Positions 40,108-51,948 of a stretch of DNA of 64,000 bases are shown piece by piece (the stretch's first letter is position 1; every line of letters begins with the position of its first letter). The stretch is from Desulfoferula mesophila (lineage in GTDB: Bacteria > Desulfobacterota > Desulfarculia > Desulfarculales > Desulfarculaceae), in the NCBI RefSeq assembly GCF_037076455.1, contig NZ_AP028679.1, forward strand, positions 3,735,501 through 3,799,500, in the 5' to 3' direction. Made by a program: the position numbers and the translations under genes. Below the pieces are notes generated by a model. It was not told where the DNA came from. It did no database searches and saw only the letters and a program-made list of their open reading frames with translations.

Positions 40108-40381
40108 AGCTGCCGGCCGAGCCGGACCCGAGCACTCTCCCCGAGGCCGCCCTTGCGCGGCTGCGGATGCTATGTTATTTTAAATAATAGATAATTTAAT
40201 CGCCCCCCAAACCCTAAGCGCAAAGTTATAGCTTATAAGTCTTCTCCATTCTTTCTGAGCAGCAGCCGGAAGGAGTGGAGTTTCTTTTTTTGGGGGGCCC
40301 GGCGTCGCCATATACGCGGCGCCCAACACCCATGCGGCCACCGGCCGGGCAAGGCCGGAGCCACGGAAAAGGAGAATGATC
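40108..40381 (+). other. Leader of the AsnB-like gene
   Basis: 274 bases without a gene. An AT-rich near-palindrome (CTATGTTATTT / AAATAATAG, about 40169-40189) lies in the likely promoter area. A hairpin GGCGTCGC-CATATA-CGCGGCGCC region lies near 40302-40324, before the binding site. No described riboswitch is recognised. Confidence 0.45.
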
Positions 40382-42037
40382 GTGTGCACCATCTGCGGAC
40401 ACTACGTCCAAGGAGGCCACATCTGTTCCAGCGACATTTACGACATGCTCAAAAAAATGGATCACCGGGGGCCCGACACCCACGGGATCTACCTGGACCA
40501 GCAGACCCACCGGGCCCGCCAGGTGGACGATTTGCGCGATGAGCTTACCAGCGACTCGCACATCGCCCTGGGACACTCCCGCCTGAGCATCGTGGGCCGG
40601 GAACAAAGCACCCAGCCCTACGTCTCCTGCGACGGCCGGCTGTCCCTGATCCACAACGGCGAGATCTACAACTATCAGAAGCTGCGCACCCTGCTCTACC
40701 AGGAGCACGACATCAAGACCACCAGCGATTCCGAGGTGATAGTGCACCTGCTGGAGGAGTCCTACCGAGGCGACCTGTTGGACGCGGTTCAGCAGATCGT
40801 GGGGCTGTTGGACGGCATGTACGCCCTGGCGGTCACGGACGGCAAATCGGTGGTGGTGGCCCGCGACCCCATCGGTAAAAAGCCCATTTATTACATCCAA
40901 AACGGCCCGGCCACCTACTTCGCCTCGGAGAAAAAGGCGCTGTGGAACGGCCGGGACGAACCGGTGCGTCTCAACCCCGGCGAACTGTTGTGCATCGACG
41001 ACCAGGGCCCCAGGGTGGAGGGCGGCTACCGCCTGGAGGTGCCCCAGATCGACATCGTGGACTTCCGCCAGGCGGTGGAGGAGTACAAGAAGGTGCTCAC
41101 CCGCTCGGTGTCCAAGCGCCTGACCGGGCTTACCGAGTCCACCCTGGGGGTGATCTTCTCCGGAGGCATCGACAGCGTGCTGGTGGCCAACCTGCTGATG
41201 CGCGAGGGCAAGAACATCGTGTGCTATTGCACTGGCACCGCCGACAGCGCCGACGTGCAGGCCGCCGAGGCGGTGGCCAAGGATCTGGGCCTGGAGCTGA
41301 AGACCTCCATCATCGACGAGGCAACGGTGGAGGCGCTGTTGCCCGAGGTGATCGAAAACGTGGAGGAGAGCGGCCTGTTGCAGGTGGAGGTGGCCATACC
41401 CATGTACCTGGCGGCCAAGCTGGCCGCGGCCGACGGCATCCGGGTGATGTACACCGGCCAGGCGGCGGACGAGCTGTTCGCGGGCTATCCCTGGTACAAC
41501 GACGTGTTGGCCGAGCACGGCTATCTGCGCCTGCACGAGAAGCTCTGGGACGACATCAACATGCTCTACTCCGACACCCTGGAGCGCGAGGACAAGCTGA
41601 CCATGGCCCACAGCATCGAGCTTCGGGCCCCCTACCTGGACCGCGACGTGATCCTCACCGCCATGCGCATCTCGCCGCGCCTCAAGCTGGAGGGCGCCGA
41701 GGACAACCTGCGCAAGCGGGTGCACCGCCAGGCCTCGGCCGAGCTGGGAGTGCCGCCCTACCTGGCCTTCCGCACCAAGGACCCGGCCCAGTCCGGCTCG
41801 GGCATCCACCAGATCATCCAAAACATCGCCGCCGCCAAGGCCGGGGTGGTGGAGGAAAAGATGGTGGACAAGAACATCGCCCGGGACAAGGGCAGCCTCT
41901 ACCGCTACGGCGACGAGTACGAGCACTACGGCGAAAGCCGGGCCCGCTTTTATTTGCAGCGCATCGAGGACGACATAAGGAAGCGCTTCATCCCGCCCTT
42001 CTTGAGCTGCGAACGCCCCCAGGCCCCGGCGGCATAG
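40382..42037 (+). CDS. AsnB-like glutamine-dependent amidotransferase / asparagine synthetase
   Basis: 551 residues with the start set at GTG 40382. GGAG is seven bases upstream, and this start places Cys at residue 2, the N-terminal nucleophile that class II glutaminases require. An ATG at 40376 would bury that Cys behind MIV. The glutaminase also has LGHSRLSIV, HNGEIYNY and an Asp in TTSDSEV. The synthetase half has the ATP PP-loop FSGGIDSV and GQAADELFAGYPWY. It would amidate a carboxylate with Gln and ATP. Because a nitrilase-type gene follows after seven bases, the true substrate may be something other than free Asp. Confidence 0.8.
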   Translation: MCTICGHYVQGGHICSSDIYDMLKKMDHRGPDTHGIYLDQQTHRARQVDDLRDELTSDSHIALGHSRLSIVGREQSTQPYVSCDGRLSLIHNGEIYNYQKLRTLLYQEHDIKTTSDSEVIVHLLEESYRGDLLDAVQQIVGLLDGMYALAVTDGKSVVVARDPIGKKPIYYIQNGPATYFASEKKALWNGRDEPVRLNPGELLCIDDQGPRVEGGYRLEVPQIDIVDFRQAVEEYKKVLTRSVSKRLTGLTESTLGVIFSGGIDSVLVANLLMREGKNIVCYCTGTADSADVQAAEAVAKDLGLELKTSIIDEATVEALLPEVIENVEESGLLQVEVAIPMYLAAKLAAADGIRVMYTGQAADELFAGYPWYNDVLAEHGYLRLHEKLWDDINMLYSDTLEREDKLTMAHSIELRAPYLDRDVILTAMRISPRLKLEGAEDNLRKRVHRQASAELGVPPYLAFRTKDPAQSGSGIHQIIQNIAAAKAGVVEEKMVDKNIARDKGSLYRYGDEYEHYGESRARFYLQRIEDDIRKRFIPPFLSCERPQAPAA

Positions 42038-42044
42038 GAGGAAC

Positions 42045-42869
42045 ATGCGCATAAGCCTGGTTCAAATAAACTTCGACCCCGAGGACGTGGCCGGCCACAT
42101 CGCGCGGCTCAAGCGGATCATCACCCAGGAGCGCGCCAGCGATTTGATCGTGTTCCCCGAGCTGATCCTGCACGGCCACCCCTCGCAGATGAAGCCCGAG
42201 GGCTTCCTCTACCGCAAGGTGGAGGTGGCCCTGTCCCACGCCTCCGGGGAGATCCGCCGTCATGTAAAGAAGTGCGGGGCCAGGGTGGTGTTGGGCGAGC
42301 TCAAGCGCGAGGGCGACGAGTTTTTGAACCTGGCCACCTATGTGGACGCGCAGGGGGCCAAGAGCTACGCCAAGGCCCACGTGCACTGGACCGAGAACTT
42401 CCGCCCGGGCGGCCGGCTCAAGGTGTTCAGCACCCCGGTGGGCCGCCTGGGCCTCAACATCTGCTACGACTCGGCCTTTGACGAGGTGTGGCGGGTATTG
42501 GCCCTGAACGGGGCCCGCCTGGTGGTGAACATCTCGGCGGTGCCCGCCCACTTCCCGGTGCCCTACATGCGCCGGCGCATGCAAGGCGCGGCGATATTCA
42601 ACCAATACTTCGTGGTCTACGTGAACCGCCCCGGCCCGGTGTTTTCCGGGGGCAGCGCGGTGTACGACCCCCACGGCGACGAGCTTTTGGCCCTGGGCGG
42701 CGGCGATGAGGTGGCTCGGGTGGATATCGATTTGGCTGAGACGGAGCGCTGGCGGGAGGAGGAGGTCATCTTCCCCAACCGCCGCCCCCACCTCTACCGC
42801 CGGGTGGCCAGCCGCAACAAGGAGGTTCCCGGCCCCAAGAAGGAGCCCCATCTCAAGGCGGTGGGTTGA
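42045..42869 (+). CDS. Carbon-nitrogen hydrolase (nitrilase superfamily)
   Basis: 274 residues. The Glu39-Lys110-Cys140 catalytic triad is intact (FPEL, YAKAHV, NICYDSAF). The family hydrolyses amides, nitriles or carbamoyl groups, or runs as the synthetase-type amidase of NAD synthetases. The ATG starts seven bases after the AsnB-like stop with GGAGGA upstream. The pairing of an amide-forming and an amide-cleaving enzyme in one short unit suggests a shared pathway, perhaps a modified-amide metabolite or an ammonia relay. This role is inference. Other members in operons with AsnB-like genes are not something I can check here. Confidence 0.85.
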   Translation: MRISLVQINFDPEDVAGHIARLKRIITQERASDLIVFPELILHGHPSQMKPEGFLYRKVEVALSHASGEIRRHVKKCGARVVLGELKREGDEFLNLATYVDAQGAKSYAKAHVHWTENFRPGGRLKVFSTPVGRLGLNICYDSAFDEVWRVLALNGARLVVNISAVPAHFPVPYMRRRMQGAAIFNQYFVVYVNRPGPVFSGGSAVYDPHGDELLALGGGDEVARVDIDLAETERWREEEVIFPNRRPHLYRRVASRNKEVPGPKKEPHLKAVG

Positions 42870-42986: not shown

Positions 42987-43630
42987 TATCTGGGCTCCAG
43001 GGTGATGTCGCCGTAATAGGCCACCGCCCTACCCCCGGTGTTGTCGCTGTCGGTCATCACCGCGATGGCCCCGATGGCCGGCGGCTCCTCGCCGAAGCAA
43101 CGGCGAAAATCGGCGGCCAGGTCCCGGCGGTGGCTCACCCACTGCCCGGCCTGGCCGTCGCCGCTGTTCACGGCCAGCATCATGACGTTGTTGCCCGCAA
43201 AGGCGTTGGGCCAAAAGCTGTCCACCGGCAGCTTGTTGGCCCATACGTAATTGATGGCCCGAGTGTTCCAAAAGAAAAAGGAGGGGAACACCACGTAGAC
43301 CCGGGCCGCGAAGTCGTCGCCCGCCTTGCTGCGGCCGTCCCCCTGGGGCAGGACGCCCTCGATCTTCCAGGACCACGCCAGCATGGGGGTCTTGGCCGGG
43401 TCGGCCTCGATTTCCTTTATAAGGGCCGAGGCGCTCTTCTGGCTCACCGCCCGGAGCACCTGGCGGCCGTCCTCGCTCACCAGGGTGTAGGTGGTGAGTC
43501 CCTTGAACTCCTTGGGCTCCCAGCCGGCCAAATCGCCCGCGCTGAAACGGCCCACCACAACCACCCCCGCCGCCGCGCCCAGGGCCAGGGCGGCGCCAAG
43601 CAGCAGGGCAACCAGGGCCCAGCGTCTCAC
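42986..43630 (-). CDS. DUF3047 family protein
   Basis: 214 residues with start GTG at 43630. That GTG overlaps the upstream gene's TGA stop (GTGA), so a coupled start is likely. A hydrophobic helix (residues 5-26) acts as signal or anchor. The remaining soluble part matches the DUF3047 pattern: LAWSWKIEG, GDDFAARVYVVF, NYVWANKLP and IGAIAVMTDSDNTGG. The family has a jelly-roll-like predicted fold and is common in Desulfobacterota; its function is unknown. It is the last gene of a three-gene coupled operon. Confidence 0.8.
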   Translation of the reverse strand: MRRWALVALLLGAALALGAAAGVVVVGRFSAGDLAGWEPKEFKGLTTYTLVSEDGRQVLRAVSQKSASALIKEIEADPAKTPMLAWSWKIEGVLPQGDGRSKAGDDFAARVYVVFPSFFFWNTRAINYVWANKLPVDSFWPNAFAGNNVMMLAVNSGDGQAGQWVSHRRDLAADFRRCFGEEPPAIGAIAVMTDSDNTGGRAVAYYGDITLEPR

Positions 43631-43860
43631 GGTTGGGGGGTCCGCTCGGGTCCCTTGGCCACCAGGCCGGTGCAGGAGCAGTGGATCATCGCCCCTTCCC
43701 AGGGCCCGCCAAGGGCCACCGCCGCGCGCATGGCCTCCCAGCCGGGGCAGCCCCGGCACACCAGGCGCTCCTTGCCCAGGCAGGGAGGCGCGGGGCCGCG
43801 GCGCAACACGTTCAAGGTAGGTTGATTTTTCATGGGGCTAATTTTAGCACGACCACTCAT
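43627..43860 (-). CDS. 77-residue Cys-rich protein, translationally coupled
   Basis: 77 residues. Both ends are 4-base overlaps: its ATG lies in the upstream gene's stop (ATGA), and its TGA lies in the downstream gene's start (GTGA). Five Cys occur: residues 27, 35, 38, 61 and 63 (Cx7Cx2C, then CxC), a spacing that could bind zinc or an FeS cluster. No signal peptide is evident. I know no family for it. An ATG at 43833 is a later alternative start, but the overlap favours 43860. The upstream AAAGGGAA can serve as the binding site. Confidence 0.75.
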   Translation of the reverse strand: MSGRAKISPMKNQPTLNVLRRGPAPPCLGKERLVCRGCPGWEAMRAAVALGGPWEGAMIHCSCTGLVAKGPERTPQP

Positions 43861-44427: not shown

Positions 44428-45645
44428 CTACTCTAAGGCCCCCTCTTGCTCCAGGCGCGCGTACTCCGCCTCATCCATGGCCAACAGGCCCAGGCATAGC
44501 TCCCTGGTGTGCTCGCCCAGGCAGGGGGAGCGCTCCACCCGCTGGGGCGCAGCGGAAAAAACCAAGGAGTGGCCCGCGTAGTCCACCAGGCCCATGGTGG
44601 GGTGCTCCCGCCGGGCGTAATAGCCGTCGTGGATTAACTGGGGGTCTTGCCCCAGGTCGCGGCCGTCGTTGGCCGCCCCGGCGGGCACCCCCAGGCCCTG
44701 CAAAAGCTCCATCACCGCCCGGGCCGCTTGGGGCCGGGTCCATTCGGCCAGGCGGTGGTCCAGTTCCTCGGCCCGGGCCAGGCGGCCCTCGCGGTGGTCC
44801 AGCTCCGGAGCCAGGGCCCAGGCCGGGGCGCCCATGGCCCGCACCAGGCCTTGCCACTGCCCGTCGTCCCGCACGCTGATGGCCACCCAGCGGTCCTCGC
44901 CGGCGCAGGGGTAGACCCCGTGGGGCGCGGCCTGGGGGTCGCGGTTGCCTTGGCGGGTGGGCGAGGTGCCGGTGAGGGCGGCCTCCAGCAGGGCCGGGGC
45001 CATGAACTGGGCTCCGGCCTCCAACTGCGAGGCGTCCATGTACACCCCCCGGCCGGTTCGCCTCCGGTAGTCCAAGGCCGCGGCCACGGCCAGCAGGTTG
45101 AGCCGGGGCACCACGTAGTCGGTGTGGGCCCCGTAGGGGCCGCAGGGCGCGCGGTCCGGCCAGCCGGCCAGATGGGTCAGGCCGCACAGGGCGGTCAGGG
45201 GCATGCCATAACCGGGCATGGTGGACAGCTCGCCGGTCTGGCCGTACATGCACGAGGAGATCATGATCAAATCGGGCCGCACCCGCACCAGGTCGTCATA
45301 GGCCAGCCCCAGCTTGGCCATGACCCCGGCGGTGTAGTTCTCCACCACCACGTCGCAATGGGCCGCCAGGCGCAGGGCCACCTCCCGGCCGCGGGGATGC
45401 TTCAGATTCAGGGAGACACTCTTTTTGCCCGCGTTTTCCCGGGCGAAGAAATGGGAGTTGTCCAGCCCCTGCTTGCCGTCCTTGAAGGGGGTAAAGGAAC
45501 GGATAATGTCGGGGCGGGTGCGGGTCTCCACCTTGATCACCTCGGCCCCGTAACCCGCCGCCCAGGAGGCGGTGAGAGGCCCGGCCACCGCCCAGCCGAA
45601 CTCCAGGACGCGCACCCCCTCCAATATGCCCGTGGAAGCCGCCAT
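44428..45645 (-). CDS. CaiB/BaiF-family CoA transferase, catalytic-type subunit
   Basis: 405 residues with ATG at 45645. The class III CoA-transferase N-terminus (GVRVLEFGWAVAGPLTASW, GAEVIKVE) is present, as is the family's catalytic Asp in GRGVYMDASQLEA near residue 190. The enzyme moves CoA between acyl groups without covalent enzyme-CoA anchoring by Glu. The partner gene at 45648 is in the same family and appears to lack that Asp, so the two probably form a heteromer, as known for (R)-benzylsuccinate CoA-transferase. The open frame continues upstream, but only inside the neighbour in a different frame. Confidence 0.85.
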   Translation of the reverse strand: MAASTGILEGVRVLEFGWAVAGPLTASWAAGYGAEVIKVETRTRPDIIRSFTPFKDGKQGLDNSHFFARENAGKKSVSLNLKHPRGREVALRLAAHCDVVVENYTAGVMAKLGLAYDDLVRVRPDLIMISSCMYGQTGELSTMPGYGMPLTALCGLTHLAGWPDRAPCGPYGAHTDYVVPRLNLLAVAAALDYRRRTGRGVYMDASQLEAGAQFMAPALLEAALTGTSPTRQGNRDPQAAPHGVYPCAGEDRWVAISVRDDGQWQGLVRAMGAPAWALAPELDHREGRLARAEELDHRLAEWTRPQAARAVMELLQGLGVPAGAANDGRDLGQDPQLIHDGYYARREHPTMGLVDYAGHSLVFSAAPQRVERSPCLGEHTRELCLGLLAMDEAEYARLEQEGALE

Positions 45646-45647
45646 GC

Positions 45648-46931
45648 CTATATCACCCCTTCCCGGCCCATGGCGGCCAGGCCGGCCTGGTCCAGGCCCA
45701 AGGCGGCGTAGACCTCGCCATTGTGCCGGCCCAGGGTGGGGGCCGGGCCGCGCACTCGGCACAGCCCCTCCTCGGTCCGCACAAAGGGGCCGGGCAGGGT
45801 CAGTTCCTGGGCATGGGCGGGGTGGGCCATTTTCACCCAAAAGCCCCGCTGGGCCAGGTGGGCGTCGGCCAAGACCCCGGCGGCGTCGTTGATCGGGTAG
45901 ACCATGACCCGCCGCCGCACCCCTTGTTCCCAAAGCTCGGCCTGGGTGTGGCGGGCGAAAAAGGCAGCCACCGGCTCCACCAGGCGCCGATCCGCCTCCT
46001 CTTGGGGCATGCGGCCCAGGTCCAGGCTGGGCCAGTCCAGGCTCTTCATTTCTTCCGGGGCCAGGCCCTCCTCGTCCATCCAGGCGGCCAGGGCCGGGTT
46101 GCTGATCATCCCCATCTGCCCGCCGAAGATGTAGAACACCACGTGGCCGTCGGCGCAGGGCCACACGATGGGCAGGGTGGTTCCCAAAGGCTGGATGGGC
46201 AGGCCGCCGCCCTGGCGGCGCATGACCTTGCCCATGGCGTCCCACAGGATGCGCGAGGAGTAGGCCGCCCGCTCCAGGGACCGCATGGCCGAGACCACCA
46301 CCCGCTGGCCCCGGCCGGTGCGCCCCCGGTGGAACAGGGCCAGGGCCGCCCCGGTGGCCGCGTCGGCCCCGGCGTGCAGCCAGCATTGGGGCAGGCTGAT
46401 GCGCACCGGGGGGCGGTCCGGGTCGCCGCAGATGTAGAGCAGGCCGGACAAGGCCCAGATCACCAGGTCGTCCGCCGCGTAGTCCCGGTAGGGGCCGCTG
46501 TCGCCAAAGGGAGTGATGGACACCAGGATCAGCTCGGGCCGCGCCTGGCATAGCGTCTCATAGCCCAGGCCCAGCTCCGCCAGGCCGCCGGGCCCCGGGC
46601 CCTCGATCACCACGTCGGCCGTGACCGCCAGCCGAAGAAACAGCTCCCGGCCCTGCCGCCGCCCCAGGTCCAGGGTGACGCCCTGCTTGCCGGTGTTGAG
46701 CGACTGCCACAACAGGCTCGCCTCTGGGGCCGCCACCCCTGGGGCGAGGGGCCCCAGCAGGCGCGCGGGGTCGCCGTCCGGCGGCTCCACCTTGATGACC
46801 GTGGCCCCCAGGTCGGCCAAGAGCTTGCCCGCGAACAGGCTCTCCTGGCCGCCCAATTCCAACACCCGGTAGCCGGTCAAAAAACCCGGCTCCGGCCCAG
46901 GGCGGGGCTCCGCCCTTTGCGCTTGCGACAC
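45648..46931 (-). CDS. CaiB/BaiF-family CoA transferase, probably non-catalytic subunit
   Basis: 427 residues; GTG start at 46931 with GGGGGGAAA before it. The N-terminal LTGYRVLELGGQESLFAGKLLADLG and GATVIKVEPPDGDPARL are typical. Where the active-site Asp is expected (GxGQxVDVS) this protein reads GRGQRVVVSAM, with Val in place of Asp. It probably serves as the partner of the catalytic subunit, whose start lies two bases past this gene's stop. The substrate is unknown. The presence of two non-identical family members in one operon is a known feature of heteromeric CoA transferases. Confidence 0.82.
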   Translation of the reverse strand: MSQAQRAEPRPGPEPGFLTGYRVLELGGQESLFAGKLLADLGATVIKVEPPDGDPARLLGPLAPGVAAPEASLLWQSLNTGKQGVTLDLGRRQGRELFLRLAVTADVVIEGPGPGGLAELGLGYETLCQARPELILVSITPFGDSGPYRDYAADDLVIWALSGLLYICGDPDRPPVRISLPQCWLHAGADAATGAALALFHRGRTGRGQRVVVSAMRSLERAAYSSRILWDAMGKVMRRQGGGLPIQPLGTTLPIVWPCADGHVVFYIFGGQMGMISNPALAAWMDEEGLAPEEMKSLDWPSLDLGRMPQEEADRRLVEPVAAFFARHTQAELWEQGVRRRVMVYPINDAAGVLADAHLAQRGFWVKMAHPAHAQELTLPGPFVRTEEGLCRVRGPAPTLGRHNGEVYAALGLDQAGLAAMGREGVI

Positions 46932-46988
46932 GGTTTCCCCCCATGCGTAGCGTTAGGCTGTGGGGCCGCCCCCCGGCGGCCCTATTTT

Positions 46989-47762
46989 TCAATCTTCGTC
47001 GGCCAGCTCCTTCATCAAGGCCTGGTAAGTGTCCGGCATCTCGGTGTGGAAGCGCAGATACGGCGTCACTGGATAGCGCAGCCCGGCGCGGTCGGTGAAC
47101 TCCAGGCCGCTGAGCAGCTTGTCCACCTCGGCGTAGGGGATGGCAAAGGCCATCTCGTCGTCCTGGGCCATGGCGAAGATGCGGTCACCGGCCCCGCAGG
47201 GCACCAGCTGGCACTGCCCGGTGATCAGCGCCTGGCTGATGTAGGAGGCGCAGCCGATGCCCCCCATGGTGCTGAAGTTCAGGGGGCGTCCGGTGTGGTG
47301 CACCAGGGCCTGCACCAGGCGCACCATCTGGGCCGGGTTGCCGTAGACGATGATTAGCTGGGGCTCCCAGTCGGCCTGGGCCAGGGGCGCGGCGATCATG
47401 TAGCCCGCCTGCCCGTGGGGCAGCTTGGGAATGGCCTCGGCCACCACGGAGCGGGCCGCGTCGTCGCACACCCAGTTGGGCACCCCGGTGTGGCCGGAGA
47501 GAAATTCGTCGGTGGGCGGGGCGAAGCCCAGGGCCAGGGCCCCCAGGGGACAGACCATGTCCTGGGGCGTGAGGCACACCTTCCAGCCGTAGCGCCGGGC
47601 CAGGGTCACCCCCTGGCACACCAGCATGGGGCTGGGCCGGTCCGCCGCCTTGGCCATGGCCGGGGGCAACTGCTCGCGGTCGGCCACCATGCTAAGGGCC
47701 ACCGGATAGGTGGCCGGGCGCAGAAATCGGCTCAGTTTTTCATCCAGACTCTTCAGATCCAT
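46989..47762 (-). CDS. DUF169 family protein
   Basis: 257 residues. Start: ATG at 47762, six bases after GGGAGGG; an ATG at 47768 abuts the binding site and is less likely. The DUF169 (COG2043) pattern is visible: CQGVTLARRYGWKVCL, CPLGALALGF, MGGIGCASYI and GCGxGD-like CGAGDR. Six or seven Cys, several conserved in the family, make metal or FeS binding plausible. Function unknown. It shares the strand with the two CoA transferases (58-base spacing) and diverges from the molybdoenzyme at 47881. Confidence 0.85.
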   Translation of the reverse strand: MDLKSLDEKLSRFLRPATYPVALSMVADREQLPPAMAKAADRPSPMLVCQGVTLARRYGWKVCLTPQDMVCPLGALALGFAPPTDEFLSGHTGVPNWVCDDAARSVVAEAIPKLPHGQAGYMIAAPLAQADWEPQLIIVYGNPAQMVRLVQALVHHTGRPLNFSTMGGIGCASYISQALITGQCQLVPCGAGDRIFAMAQDDEMAFAIPYAEVDKLLSGLEFTDRAGLRYPVTPYLRFHTEMPDTYQALMKELADED

Positions 47763-47880
47763 GCTCATCCCTCCCGTGGCCAGGCCAGGCTGCGCTTGCC
47801 AAGCGCGCGTCACAATGCTTAAATCTCCCCATTCGTCCGGAATTATAACCCCGCCCCACCGGGGGAAGGCAAGCAAAGCC

Positions 47881-49959
47881 ATGGACCAAAATTCCCGCGA
47901 GGTAAAAACCCACTGCTCCTACATGGACCACGGCGGCTGCGGCATCATCTGCACCGTGGAGAACGGGCGCATCGTAAAGGTCAAGGGAGACCCCGACGGC
48001 TGGCTCAACCAGGGCTACATCTGCCCCAAGGGCCTGGCCTCCCCTCACCGCCTGAACCATCCGGGGCGCCTGCGCCATCCCCTGCGCCGGGTGGGCGCGC
48101 GGGGCGAGGGCCACTGGGAGCGCATCTCCTGGGACGAGGCCCTGGGGGAGATCAGCGAGCGCCTGGACGAGATTCGCCGGCGCGAGGGCGCCCGCGCCGT
48201 GGCCTTTGGCCTGGGCATGCCCAAGGGCCTGGACCACTTCGCCCAGATCCGCCTGGCCAACACCTTCGGCTCGCCCAACCTGGTGGCCAGCCAGGACGTG
48301 TGCCACGCCCCGAGGGAGATCACCGGGGTGCACACCTGCGGCTTCTACCCGGTGGTGGATTTCAAAGAGCCCAGCGAGCTGGTGGTGCTGTGGGCCAGCG
48401 GGGTGAGCACCACCAACGAGGAAGGGGCCATATGCTCCCAGCTCTACAAGCAGTTGGAAGACGGCACCCGGCTGATGGTCATCGACCCCTATCGCAGCCG
48501 TTTGGCCGAGCGGGCCGAGCTGTGGCTGCCGCTCAGGCCGGGCAGTGACGCGGCCCTGGCCCTGGGCATGATCAACGTAATCATCGCCGAAAAGCTCTTT
48601 GACGCCGAGTTCGTGGATCAGCACGTGCATGGCTTTGCCGAGCTGGCCGCCCAGGCGGCCGACTACCCGCCGGAAAAGGTGGCGGCGATCACCTGGCTGG
48701 AGCCGGAGCAAATCCGCCAAGCGGCCCGGCTCTACGCCACGGCCAAGCCGGCGGCCCTGGCCTGGGGCAACCCCATCGAGCACACCAACCAGGCCTTCCA
48801 CGCGGCGCGGGGCCTGGTGTGCCTCATGGCCCTGACCGGCAACCTGGACGTGGCCGGGGGCAACGTGCAGCCCCTGGAGCCCAAGATCGCCGGGCTGGGC
48901 CCCTACGTGCGGGCCGACCTGGTGCCCGACAAGCGCAAGGAGATGCTCAGCGCGGCCCACGGGGTGATCCCCCGCTTCATGACCATACCGCCGGCCTTTT
49001 TGCGCCGGGCCATCCTGGAGGGCGAGCCATACCCGGTGAAGGCCCTGTTCAGCCTGGGCACCAATCCGCTGATGGTCTGGGCCGACAGCCGCCTGACCAA
49101 GCGGGCCCTGGAGAGCCTGGAGTTTTTCGCCTGCGCCGAGCTTTTCCTCACCCCCAGCGCGGCCCTGGCCGACGTGGTGCTGCCCGCCGCGGCCAGCCTG
49201 GAGTTCGACGACATCGGCCACTACGGCATCGGCCACGGCTACATCCTGGCCCGGCCCCGGGTGGTGGCCCCGCCCGAGGAGTGCCGCCCGCCCTTGCAGA
49301 TCTGCTGCGACCTGGGGCGTCGCCTGGCCGGAGAGGAGCTGTGGCCCGTGGACTACCACGCGCTGCTGGACATGGTGCTGGAGCCCAGCGGCATTGGCTG
49401 GCAAGAGTTCATGGCCATGGGCCACCTGGAAGGCCCCCACAAATATCGCAAGTGCGAGGCCAAGGGCTTCCGCACCCCCACCGGCAAGGTGGAGCTAAGG
49501 CTCTCCACGGCCGAGAAGTTCGGCCTGCCTCCCTTGCCCGCCTGGGAGGGCTTTGCCGAGGACACCAGCGAAGAATTCCCCTTGGTGCTCACTGGGCGCA
49601 AGAACAAGGCGGCCCTGCACTCCTCCTACCGCTGGGTGGAAGAGCTAAAGAAACACGACCCCGAGCCCATAACCGAGCTGCACCCGGCCGATGCGGTGCG
49701 CCTGGGCATAAACGATGGCGACCGGGTGCGGCTGAGCACCAGGCAAGGCAGCATCGAGCAGGTGGCCAGGCTGAACCAGCGGGTGCGCCCTGGCGTGGTC
49801 TTTGCCGAGCACGGCTGGTGGTTCCCCGAGGAGGACGACCCCCTGGGCGGCTGGGAGCGCAGCAACTTCAACCTGCTCACCAGCGCGGCCAAGCTGGGCA
49901 AGGAGTTCGGCACCCCCAACCTGGCGGCCATCCCCTGCCGGGTGGAAAAGGTGGAGTAG
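47881..49959 (+). CDS. Molybdopterin oxidoreductase, formate-dehydrogenase-like family
   Basis: 692 residues, DMSO-reductase superfamily. The 4Fe-4S cluster uses Cys12, Cys20, Cys24 and Cys48. Cys141-His142 (DVCHAP) sit where formate dehydrogenases carry SeCys/Cys-His, so Cys141 is the likely Mo/W ligand. ERISWDEALGEI and WLPLRPGSDAALALGMINVII are conserved in formate dehydrogenase and acetylene-hydratase-like members. No electron-transfer subunit lies nearby and no Tat signal is seen, so it is probably soluble and cytoplasmic. The actual substrate is open. ATG 47881 is the first start after the divergent promoter region. Confidence 0.85.
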   Translation: MDQNSREVKTHCSYMDHGGCGIICTVENGRIVKVKGDPDGWLNQGYICPKGLASPHRLNHPGRLRHPLRRVGARGEGHWERISWDEALGEISERLDEIRRREGARAVAFGLGMPKGLDHFAQIRLANTFGSPNLVASQDVCHAPREITGVHTCGFYPVVDFKEPSELVVLWASGVSTTNEEGAICSQLYKQLEDGTRLMVIDPYRSRLAERAELWLPLRPGSDAALALGMINVIIAEKLFDAEFVDQHVHGFAELAAQAADYPPEKVAAITWLEPEQIRQAARLYATAKPAALAWGNPIEHTNQAFHAARGLVCLMALTGNLDVAGGNVQPLEPKIAGLGPYVRADLVPDKRKEMLSAAHGVIPRFMTIPPAFLRRAILEGEPYPVKALFSLGTNPLMVWADSRLTKRALESLEFFACAELFLTPSAALADVVLPAAASLEFDDIGHYGIGHGYILARPRVVAPPEECRPPLQICCDLGRRLAGEELWPVDYHALLDMVLEPSGIGWQEFMAMGHLEGPHKYRKCEAKGFRTPTGKVELRLSTAEKFGLPPLPAWEGFAEDTSEEFPLVLTGRKNKAALHSSYRWVEELKKHDPEPITELHPADAVRLGINDGDRVRLSTRQGSIEQVARLNQRVRPGVVFAEHGWWFPEEDDPLGGWERSNFNLLTSAAKLGKEFGTPNLAAIPCRVEKVE

Positions 49960-50455: not shown

Positions 50456-51205
50456 CTACTCAACCAGCGTAAACTTCCAGGCGCAGTACCACTCCTCGGG
50501 ATGCGGATCGGGCGGGCAGCCCACGCACTCGGTGACGATGCGCGGGTCTATGCTGGAAGCAAAGGTGGGGTATTCCACCAGGCCCGCCGAGCGGCAGGGG
50601 TAGTCGGCCAGGCCCCGGCGCTTGCGCGCGCTCTGCACCCGGCAGTCGTTCATCCGGAAGATGAAGCTGTGCTCGTCCACATCGTGCATGGACTGGCGGT
50701 TGACCATGGTGTAGTTGCGCAGGCCTAGGGCGGCCTTGAGCCCGGCCAGGCCGGGGCGCTCGCCCAGGCCCAGCACCCGCTTGATGTAAAAGGCCTCGTG
50801 GGGGCTCAGGCGGCTCCAGCACAGGTCGTTGGCCCGCTTGGCCGCGTCCATGCCGTGGGACTTTTCCACCGTCTGGAACCACACCCCGTCGGTGACCAGC
50901 CAGTTGGCCCCCGACGCCCGCGCCAGGTCGATGAGCTCCTCGCGGCTCAGGTTCTTGAGTTTGAGCGGCACGCCCTTTTCATCCACCTCGAAGCCCAGGA
51001 TCTTGCCCAGGCGGCCCATCTGAAAGGCCAGGCAGGCCTCGAACACCTCCTGGTCGGCCGCCAAGGCGCTCTCCAGGCCGTTCTGGTGCTCCACTTCGCG
51101 GAACCACAGGCCGTAGTGAATCAGATTGCGGTGAAAGGTCTCCAACACGAAACGGACCAGTTGTTCCTGGTCCAGGTCGTCTATCTGCGGGCTGGGATGA
51201 GCCAT
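50456..51205 (-). CDS. Uncharacterised Cys-rich protein (DUF6125-like)
   Basis: 249 residues. ATG at 51205 with GGAGCAA upstream. The first 170 residues are helical, with FREVEHQNGLE and WFQTVEKSHGMDAAKRAND as two related-looking segments, suggesting an internal repeat. The C-terminal 60 residues hold clustered Cys (NDCRVQ, YPCRSAG, TECVGCPPD, WYCAWKF), a possible metal site. It resembles proteins annotated DUF6125 or L-2-amino-thiazoline-4-carboxylate hydrolase-like in related bacteria; I am not certain of this. It is divergent from the TetR gene, so that regulator may control it. Confidence 0.6.
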   Translation of the reverse strand: MAHPSPQIDDLDQEQLVRFVLETFHRNLIHYGLWFREVEHQNGLESALAADQEVFEACLAFQMGRLGKILGFEVDEKGVPLKLKNLSREELIDLARASGANWLVTDGVWFQTVEKSHGMDAAKRANDLCWSRLSPHEAFYIKRVLGLGERPGLAGLKAALGLRNYTMVNRQSMHDVDEHSFIFRMNDCRVQSARKRRGLADYPCRSAGLVEYPTFASSIDPRIVTECVGCPPDPHPEEWYCAWKFTLVE

Positions 51206-51318: not shown

Positions 51319-51948
51319 ATGGCCATACCGACCAACCAGCAGCCGACGCCTCCCGGCCCGCGCGGGCAGCGCCGCCAGCAGGCGGCCCGCCGCCTGAGCG
51401 AGGAAGGCCAGCGGCTCATCGCCCGCCAGGGCCTGGCCGCGGCCAAGGTGATCGACATCACCGCCGCCGCCGGGGTGGGCAAGGGCACCTTTTTCACCCA
51501 CTGGCCCAGCAAGGAGGCCTTCGTGGCCGAGCTGGTGGACCAGGTGCTCAGCGACCTGGCCCGGCGGGTGCGCCCCCTGAACCTGGCCCCCACCGATGCC
51601 GAGACCCTGGTAGCCGACGTGGCCGCCGTGCATCTGCGCTATTTCCAGCTCAAGCCAGAGGCCGCCGCCCTGGTGAACCAGGCCCTGGCCCTGGATGCGG
51701 GCGGCGAGGCCCACCGCGCCGTGGCCCAGCGCCTGGGCGAACATGTGGCCCTGGTGGCCGACATGCTGGCCCCGGCCGGAGCGCAACTGGGCTGGCCTCG
51801 GGAACGAGCCCGCGAGCTGGCCCTGGCCGTGGTTGCCCTGGCCGGGGGCTATTTCTGGCTGGGCCCCGCCCTGGGGCTGGGGGCCGACACCCCCCTGGAG
51901 CTATTGGACCGCCTGGGCCGGGCCCTGGCCCGAGGACTGGCCCGTTGA
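51319..51948 (+). CDS. TetR-family transcriptional regulator
   Basis: 209 residues; ATG at 51319 follows AAGGA. The N-terminal helix-turn-helix reads EEGQRLIARQGLAAAKVIDITAAAGVGKGTFFTHWPSKEAF, a TetR signature apart from the long spacer (shown here across a break only for description): GVGKGTFFTHWPSKEAF is the core. The C-terminal ligand domain is Ala/Leu-rich and unremarkable. The palindrome immediately upstream is its probable operator, and the divergent Cys-rich gene is the probable target. Effector unknown. Confidence 0.87.
   Translation: MAIPTNQQPTPPGPRGQRRQQAARRLSEEGQRLIARQGLAAAKVIDITAAAGVGKGTFFTHWPSKEAFVAELVDQVLSDLARRVRPLNLAPTDAETLVADVAAVHLRYFQLKPEAAALVNQALALDAGGEAHRAVAQRLGEHVALVADMLAPAGAQLGWPRERARELALAVVALAGGYFWLGPALGLGADTPLELLDRLGRALARGLAR

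Follow-up and report, generated by a model that had tools for sequence, protein, structure and literature searches.

A paired class III CoA-transferase, a DUF169 protein and a divergent Mo/W enzyme in Desulfoferula mesophila: one system or bordering units?

Four neighbouring genes of Desulfoferula mesophila raise the question of whether closeness on the chromosome reflects a shared substrate. Two encode CoA-transferase chains of the CaiB type (E and F), a third encodes a DUF169 protein, and the fourth, read in the other direction, encodes an enzyme of the bis-MGD Mo/W family (Table 1). All four are present and intact in the window, by which is meant the whole stretch of 64,000 nucleotides analysed. 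The reading preferred here, and considered probable on the evidence of the sequences, is that E and F would form a heteromeric class III CoA-transferase with F catalytic and E a silent partner, that they would be a detached copy of a pair belonging to a carboxylate operon in relatives, and that the Mo/W enzyme would be separate.

Table 1. Features of the locus, with positions counted from the first nucleotide of the window
Feature	Position	Strand	Description
CaiB_F	44428-45645	(-)	class III CoA-transferase subunit, like chain B of 9fn0; motif GRGVYMDASQ; PF02515, 4.5e-93
CaiB_E	45648-46931	(-)	partner subunit, like chain A of 9fn0; motif GRGQRVVVSA; PF02515, 2.7e-75
DUF169 protein	46989-47768	(-)	PF02596, 1.4e-49; heads the probable DUF169-E-F transcript
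Divergent intergenic region, DUF169 gene / Mo/W gene	47769-47880		112 bp; from sequence
Mo/W enzyme, bis-MGD family	47881-49959	(+)	stand-alone, cytoplasmic; Fe-S motif C12-x3-D16-HGG-C20...C48; metal site C141-H142-x-x-R145-E146
DUF6125 protein	50456-51205	(-)	PF19620, 3.3e-70; adjoins the Mo gene in the genus
TetR regulator	51319-51948	(+)	PF00440; divergent from the DUF6125 gene, syntenic in the genus

The CoA-transferase pair and its catalytic Asp

The Pfam family CoA_transf_3 spans the full length of both chains. E and F are separated by 2 bp and the DUF169 gene and E by 57 bp, spacing which suggests that DUF169-E-F is probably a single transcript. (The 707-aa open reading frame at 44428-46551 begins too early to be F, whose true start is near 45645.)

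The Asp of F, in YMDAS, and the Val of E, in VVVS, share one alignment column, which confirms the first-pass assignment of Asp to one chain and Val (RVVVS) to the other. The catalytic Asp that a class III enzyme has in at least one chain is therefore that of F. In the clade of the window pair, the E chains have Val, Gln, His or Arg at this column (9 of 9) and the F chains all have Asp, the clade of non-Asp E chains having 100/100 support in the tree. Most E/F pairs outside this clade have Asp in both chains.

The known enzyme with which the pair is best compared is succinyl-CoA:(R)-benzylsuccinate CoA-transferase, BbsEF (PDB 9fn0/9fol/9fun), which belongs to the toluene pathway. It too has two class III chains encoded by adjacent genes, with Asp in one and absent from the other, and each of the chains here matches one of its chains. 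In the PDB, E is matched best by 9fn0 chain A, at 1.7e-62 (chain B, 1.3e-22), and F by chain B, at 1e-84 (chain A, 2.7e-35); the 9fn0 sequences, being taken from HMMER alignments, have a few terminal residues missing. Identity between BbsEF and relatives of the window pair is about 32-40%, and the window genome lacks a close orthologue of 9fn0 chain B. However, the placement of the Asp differs. In 9fn0 the catalytic column holds Asp in chain A and Ser in chain B, whereas here it is the B-like chain that has the Asp. The placement known from 9fn0 is also seen at six 9fn0-type loci of Desulfobacterota, where the A chains all have Asp and the B chains Ala or Glu. Set against the Asp-less E clade, these Asp-less B chains indicate, at the level of sequence, that one heteromeric enzyme type has lost Asp from opposite chains in its two lineages. 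The earlier likening to benzylsuccinate CoA-transferase thus holds in kind (paired chains, one lacking Asp), but the chain predicted to be active is the opposite one.

That E is retained as a partner of F is suggested by its distribution and its rate of change. The E type was found in 19 genomes in a 395-genome search of the phylum at the threshold used, and the F type adjoins it at every examined locus with enough sequence, the exceptions being at contig ends. E types and F types are separate groups in the tree, and within the window clade the branching order of the F chains is that of the E chains. Compared with a second species of the genus (G047), dN/dS is 0.27 (E) and 0.23 (F), values which indicate that purifying selection acts on E as it does on F, and that E is not decaying despite the loss of its Asp. 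A heteromer with one active chain, as was first proposed, is well supported by the one-to-one matching to 9fn0, the adjacency, the shared branching order and the constraint on the Asp-less chain, and it is because of these that it is favoured. For 44428-46931 as a whole, a heteromer with a single active chain is likely, with roles reversed relative to the benzylsuccinate type. In such an enzyme F would use its Asp as the residue of the covalent intermediate and perform CoA transfer, and E would be retained as a structural or substrate-binding partner. It is possible that F forms homomers or that E has a different role.

The operon of relatives and the detached copy

Relatives show the pair in a fuller setting. 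In four genomes of the same genus (G045, G046, G047 and G050) it is part of an operon with the gene order E-F-MaoC-DUF169-ligase, in which the hydratase is MaoC/FAS1-like, the DUF169 protein is a second one and the ligase is AMP-forming; the operon also includes genes for a TRAP transporter and a GntR regulator. The core of this operon is also kept in two other families. In one of them (G433) it is E-F-MaoC-ligase with GntR and TRAP; no DUF169 gene is present between the hydratase gene and the ligase reading frame, which is incomplete at a contig end. In the other (G108) it is E-F-MaoC-DUF169-ligase with a transporter which, from its sequence, we take to be of the TTT type (TctA/TctC-like); the gene downstream is, presumably, 3-hydroxyacyl-CoA dehydrogenase-like, a name also given from sequence.

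The gene content of the operon points to uptake of a carboxylic acid, its activation with CoA and hydration, the substrate's being a carboxylate itself deduced from these genes. A TRAP or TTT transporter would import the acid, which would be converted to its CoA ester; the MaoC/FAS1-like hydratase would hydrate an unsaturated CoA ester, with DUF169 and the AMP-forming ligase usually also taking part. This setting (TRAP/TTT-MaoC-DUF169-ligase) differs from that of BbsEF and is the natural context of the pair, and the first-pass statement that no known pathway matches the gene set stands. Two type III CoA-transferases, MaoC proteins and a ligase are likewise found together in the 'Magic' benzene cluster (PMC13101534), a likeness of gene content.

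At the window site the remainder of the operon, transporter and ligase, is missing, and a search of the window genome for a homologue of the MaoC-like hydratase showed it to be absent. G047 has two copies of the pair, one in the operon and one detached beside a DUF169 gene, and it is with the detached copy that the window pair groups in the tree. The simplest reading of this is that the pair was duplicated and that the window lineage then lost the operon, its genome keeping the detached copy behind DUF169. Is this copy then a disused relic of the lost TRAP operon? The absence of MaoC from the genome and of transporter and ligase from the site would fit such a relic, as would the higher dN/dS of the detached copies (0.23-0.27, against 0.14-0.15 for operon copies). 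However, these values are far below 1 and the reading frames are intact; moreover, an intact detached pair is found in two species, and DUF169 immediately precedes it across the 57-bp gap, so that disuse is unlikely. The detached pair is more probably a working heteromer.

Several further features of the surroundings may be recorded. At 43627-43815(-) is a small Cys-rich reading frame (PPCLGKERLVCRGCPGW), which is conserved in the same position in several same-genus genomes. At 40376-42869(+) a gene for an asparagine-synthase-like protein is followed by one for a nitrilase-like protein (75-93% identity, syntenic in the genus). In two genomes of the genus, G048 and G049, a PHP/DUF2889-like gene and one for a 165-169-aa protein with no Pfam match replace the CaiB operon (L040:7952-9597(-) and L041:11935-13585(+)).

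DUF169 and the question of a joint pathway

The protein that lies between the CoA-transferase genes and the Mo/W gene is a clear member of its family. Its PF02596 match is full-length and scores 169.3 bits (curated cut-off 27), and C51-Q52 and C173 are invariant in a 47-sequence alignment. An AlphaFold model built with 47 sequences has a pLDDT of 92.5 and a pTM of 0.89. A search of the PDB with this predicted fold gave no clear match (best Foldseek E 0.04, best VIA Z 4.3); from the model no structural relative is named, nor is a new fold claimed. No function for DUF169 or DUF6125 was found in the literature.

Forty DUF169 regions were sampled and the gene re-found in 29, within about 4.5 kb of which were an acyl-CoA ligase gene in three and a CaiB gene in one; the control had a ligase in 1 of 75 loci. 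Naming a function from 3/29 against 1/75 was rejected, the difference being too weak. On plasmid pMTS3 of Cupriavidus, an unrelated betaproteobacterium, an acyl-CoA ligase gene directly follows the DUF169 gene (L208:7929-10410(+)). DUF169 also occurs fused to dephospho-CoA kinase, CoaE (L040:6531-7955(-), L170 and L171). G048/G049 have the fusion near the Mo gene in addition to another CoaE; for G108 and G433 no CoaE other than the fusion was found.

In the window the DUF169 gene (PF02596/COG2043) is transcribed away from the Mo/W gene and towards the CaiB pair, which it precedes, and it is through it that the two sides might be joined. In a joint pathway the CoA-transferase would activate a substrate and the Mo/W enzyme would hydrate or oxidise its CoA ester, with DUF169 as an accessory. 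In favour of this, the genes share a 5.5-kb region, the enzyme with the nearest fold to the Mo/W protein is acetylene hydratase, and the divergent DUF169-Mo arrangement is kept in all seven same-genus genomes with both gene starts in view. DUF169 also adjoins the Mo gene outside the genus, being directly downstream of it at three loci (L086, L118 and L114), as well as being a member of the relatives' CaiB operon. Two thirds of genomes have one to a few DUF169 genes, and a rough estimate of the direct DUF169 neighbours expected by chance in 75 Mo loci is about 0.1. As three were observed, the DUF169-Mo thread may be real, but the three copies share only 30-33% identity with that of the window.

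However, the Mo gene occurs without the CaiB pair, and because of this a joint pathway is unsupported. G048 and G049 have the DUF169-Mo arrangement and lack the pair. Most of the 75 Mo loci outside the genus, some of them shortened by contig ends, have none of these neighbours within 4.5 kb (DUF169 in 3, ligase in 1, CoaE in 1, CaiB in 0). In G108 the Mo gene and the CaiB operon are on different contigs, and outside the genus E/F and the Mo motif occur together in four genomes, three from one genus. The first-pass suggestion that CoA-transferase, DUF169 protein and Mo enzyme work on one substrate is not supported and is improbable. A functional link between the Mo enzyme and the CaiB module through DUF169 is possible, DUF169 being tied weakly to both, by its genus-wide divergence from the Mo gene and its membership of the CaiB operon. 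Most likely, to judge from these neighbourhoods, the Mo/W enzyme is a separate unit that borders the CaiB pair.

The Mo/W gene has a neighbour of its own in the DUF6125 gene, and this adjacency is also found at distant loci (L042, L054 and L123). In the last of these, from a distant MAG, the Mo/W gene is followed by DUF6125 and then by a stand-alone CoaE gene (L123:2447-3835(+)).

The Mo/W enzyme and its family

Pfam matches of the Mo/W protein are Molybdopterin (1.9e-37) with Fe4S4 and dinucleotide-binding domains. Its N-terminus (MDQNSREVKTHC) has no Tat signal or signal peptide, and the genes adjoining its own at the locus encode no partner subunit. With C141-H142 at the metal site, this bears out its initial description as a cytoplasmic Cys-His molybdoenzyme without partner subunits.

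In all 83 family members one of the Fe-S ligand Cys is exchanged for Asp, and C12, D16, H17, C20, C48, C141, H142, R145 and E146 are invariant in their alignment, though the invariance comes in part from the way members were selected, as the family was collected with two peptide patterns, one of which contains the MDH motif. Residues 15-17 of the model have a pLDDT below 50, which makes its local Fe-S geometry unusable. At position 16, relatives outside the family (G041b and G061) have Cys, and a ferredoxin-like gene lies beside theirs. Related enzymes of 40-41% identity, whose CxxC cluster motif is normal and whose genes adjoin a ferredoxin-like one, are encoded at L044:2336-4905(+) and L045:1477-3970(-), and are the natural comparison for the Asp-containing family. 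Within the phylum, 25 of 297 genomes have the Mo motif, and the family is also present in Syntrophomonadaceae; its distribution is patchy and its members mostly orphan.

In acetylene hydratase the catalytic residue is Asp13, adjacent to the [4Fe-4S] site, and Ile142 is also characteristic. In formate dehydrogenase Arg333 has a role. Acetylene hydratase (PDB 2e7z) is the best match of the Mo/W protein both in sequence (2.7e-84) and in fold (Z 41.9 over 678 residues, 30% identity), and shares with it the DMSO-reductase-family fold, a Cys metal ligand (C141 in 83/83) and the lack of a partner subunit. However, His and not Ile follows the metal-ligand Cys, at position 142, and in place of four cluster Cys with an adjacent Asp13 the second ligand position is itself Asp, followed by His. 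Formate dehydrogenase (FdhF, HDCR) is next, with Cys-His at the metal site and an FdhH fold Z of 37.5, but here the Arg333 position is Asp or Glu in 81/83 members, the RGQNN motif is absent, one Fe-S ligand is changed and there is no redox partner gene. A further relative of acetylene hydratase, the metallopterin-dependent ergothioneine synthase, catalyses unexpected chemistry; in that enzyme a cysteine desulfurase is fused on and four Fe-S Cys are conserved, and the Mo/W enzyme has neither feature (PMC9516567). That the protein is a plain formate dehydrogenase or acetylene hydratase, as Cys141-His142 and the two fold scores might suggest, is very unlikely given the Asp at the Fe-S ligand position, the residue after the metal Cys and the Asp/Glu at Arg333. 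By its residues it belongs to a distinct, uncharacterised family, and is a predicted soluble enzyme with an acetylene-hydratase-like fold and Asp for one Fe-S ligand Cys. A more speculative idea, to which little weight is given, is that DUF169 is a CoA-thioester-related partner of both the CaiB module and this MDHGGC enzyme, which, its Fe-S cluster being Asp-ligated and a redox partner lacking, would do new chemistry on an activated acid.

The family presents a natural Asp-for-Cys change at the Fe-S cluster of a widespread enzyme. The conserved operon of the relatives is a concrete candidate for an anaerobic carboxylate pathway. In the CoA-transferases, the apparent silencing of opposite chains in two lineages is a natural experiment on what a silent chain may do, be it substrate binding or half-of-sites control.
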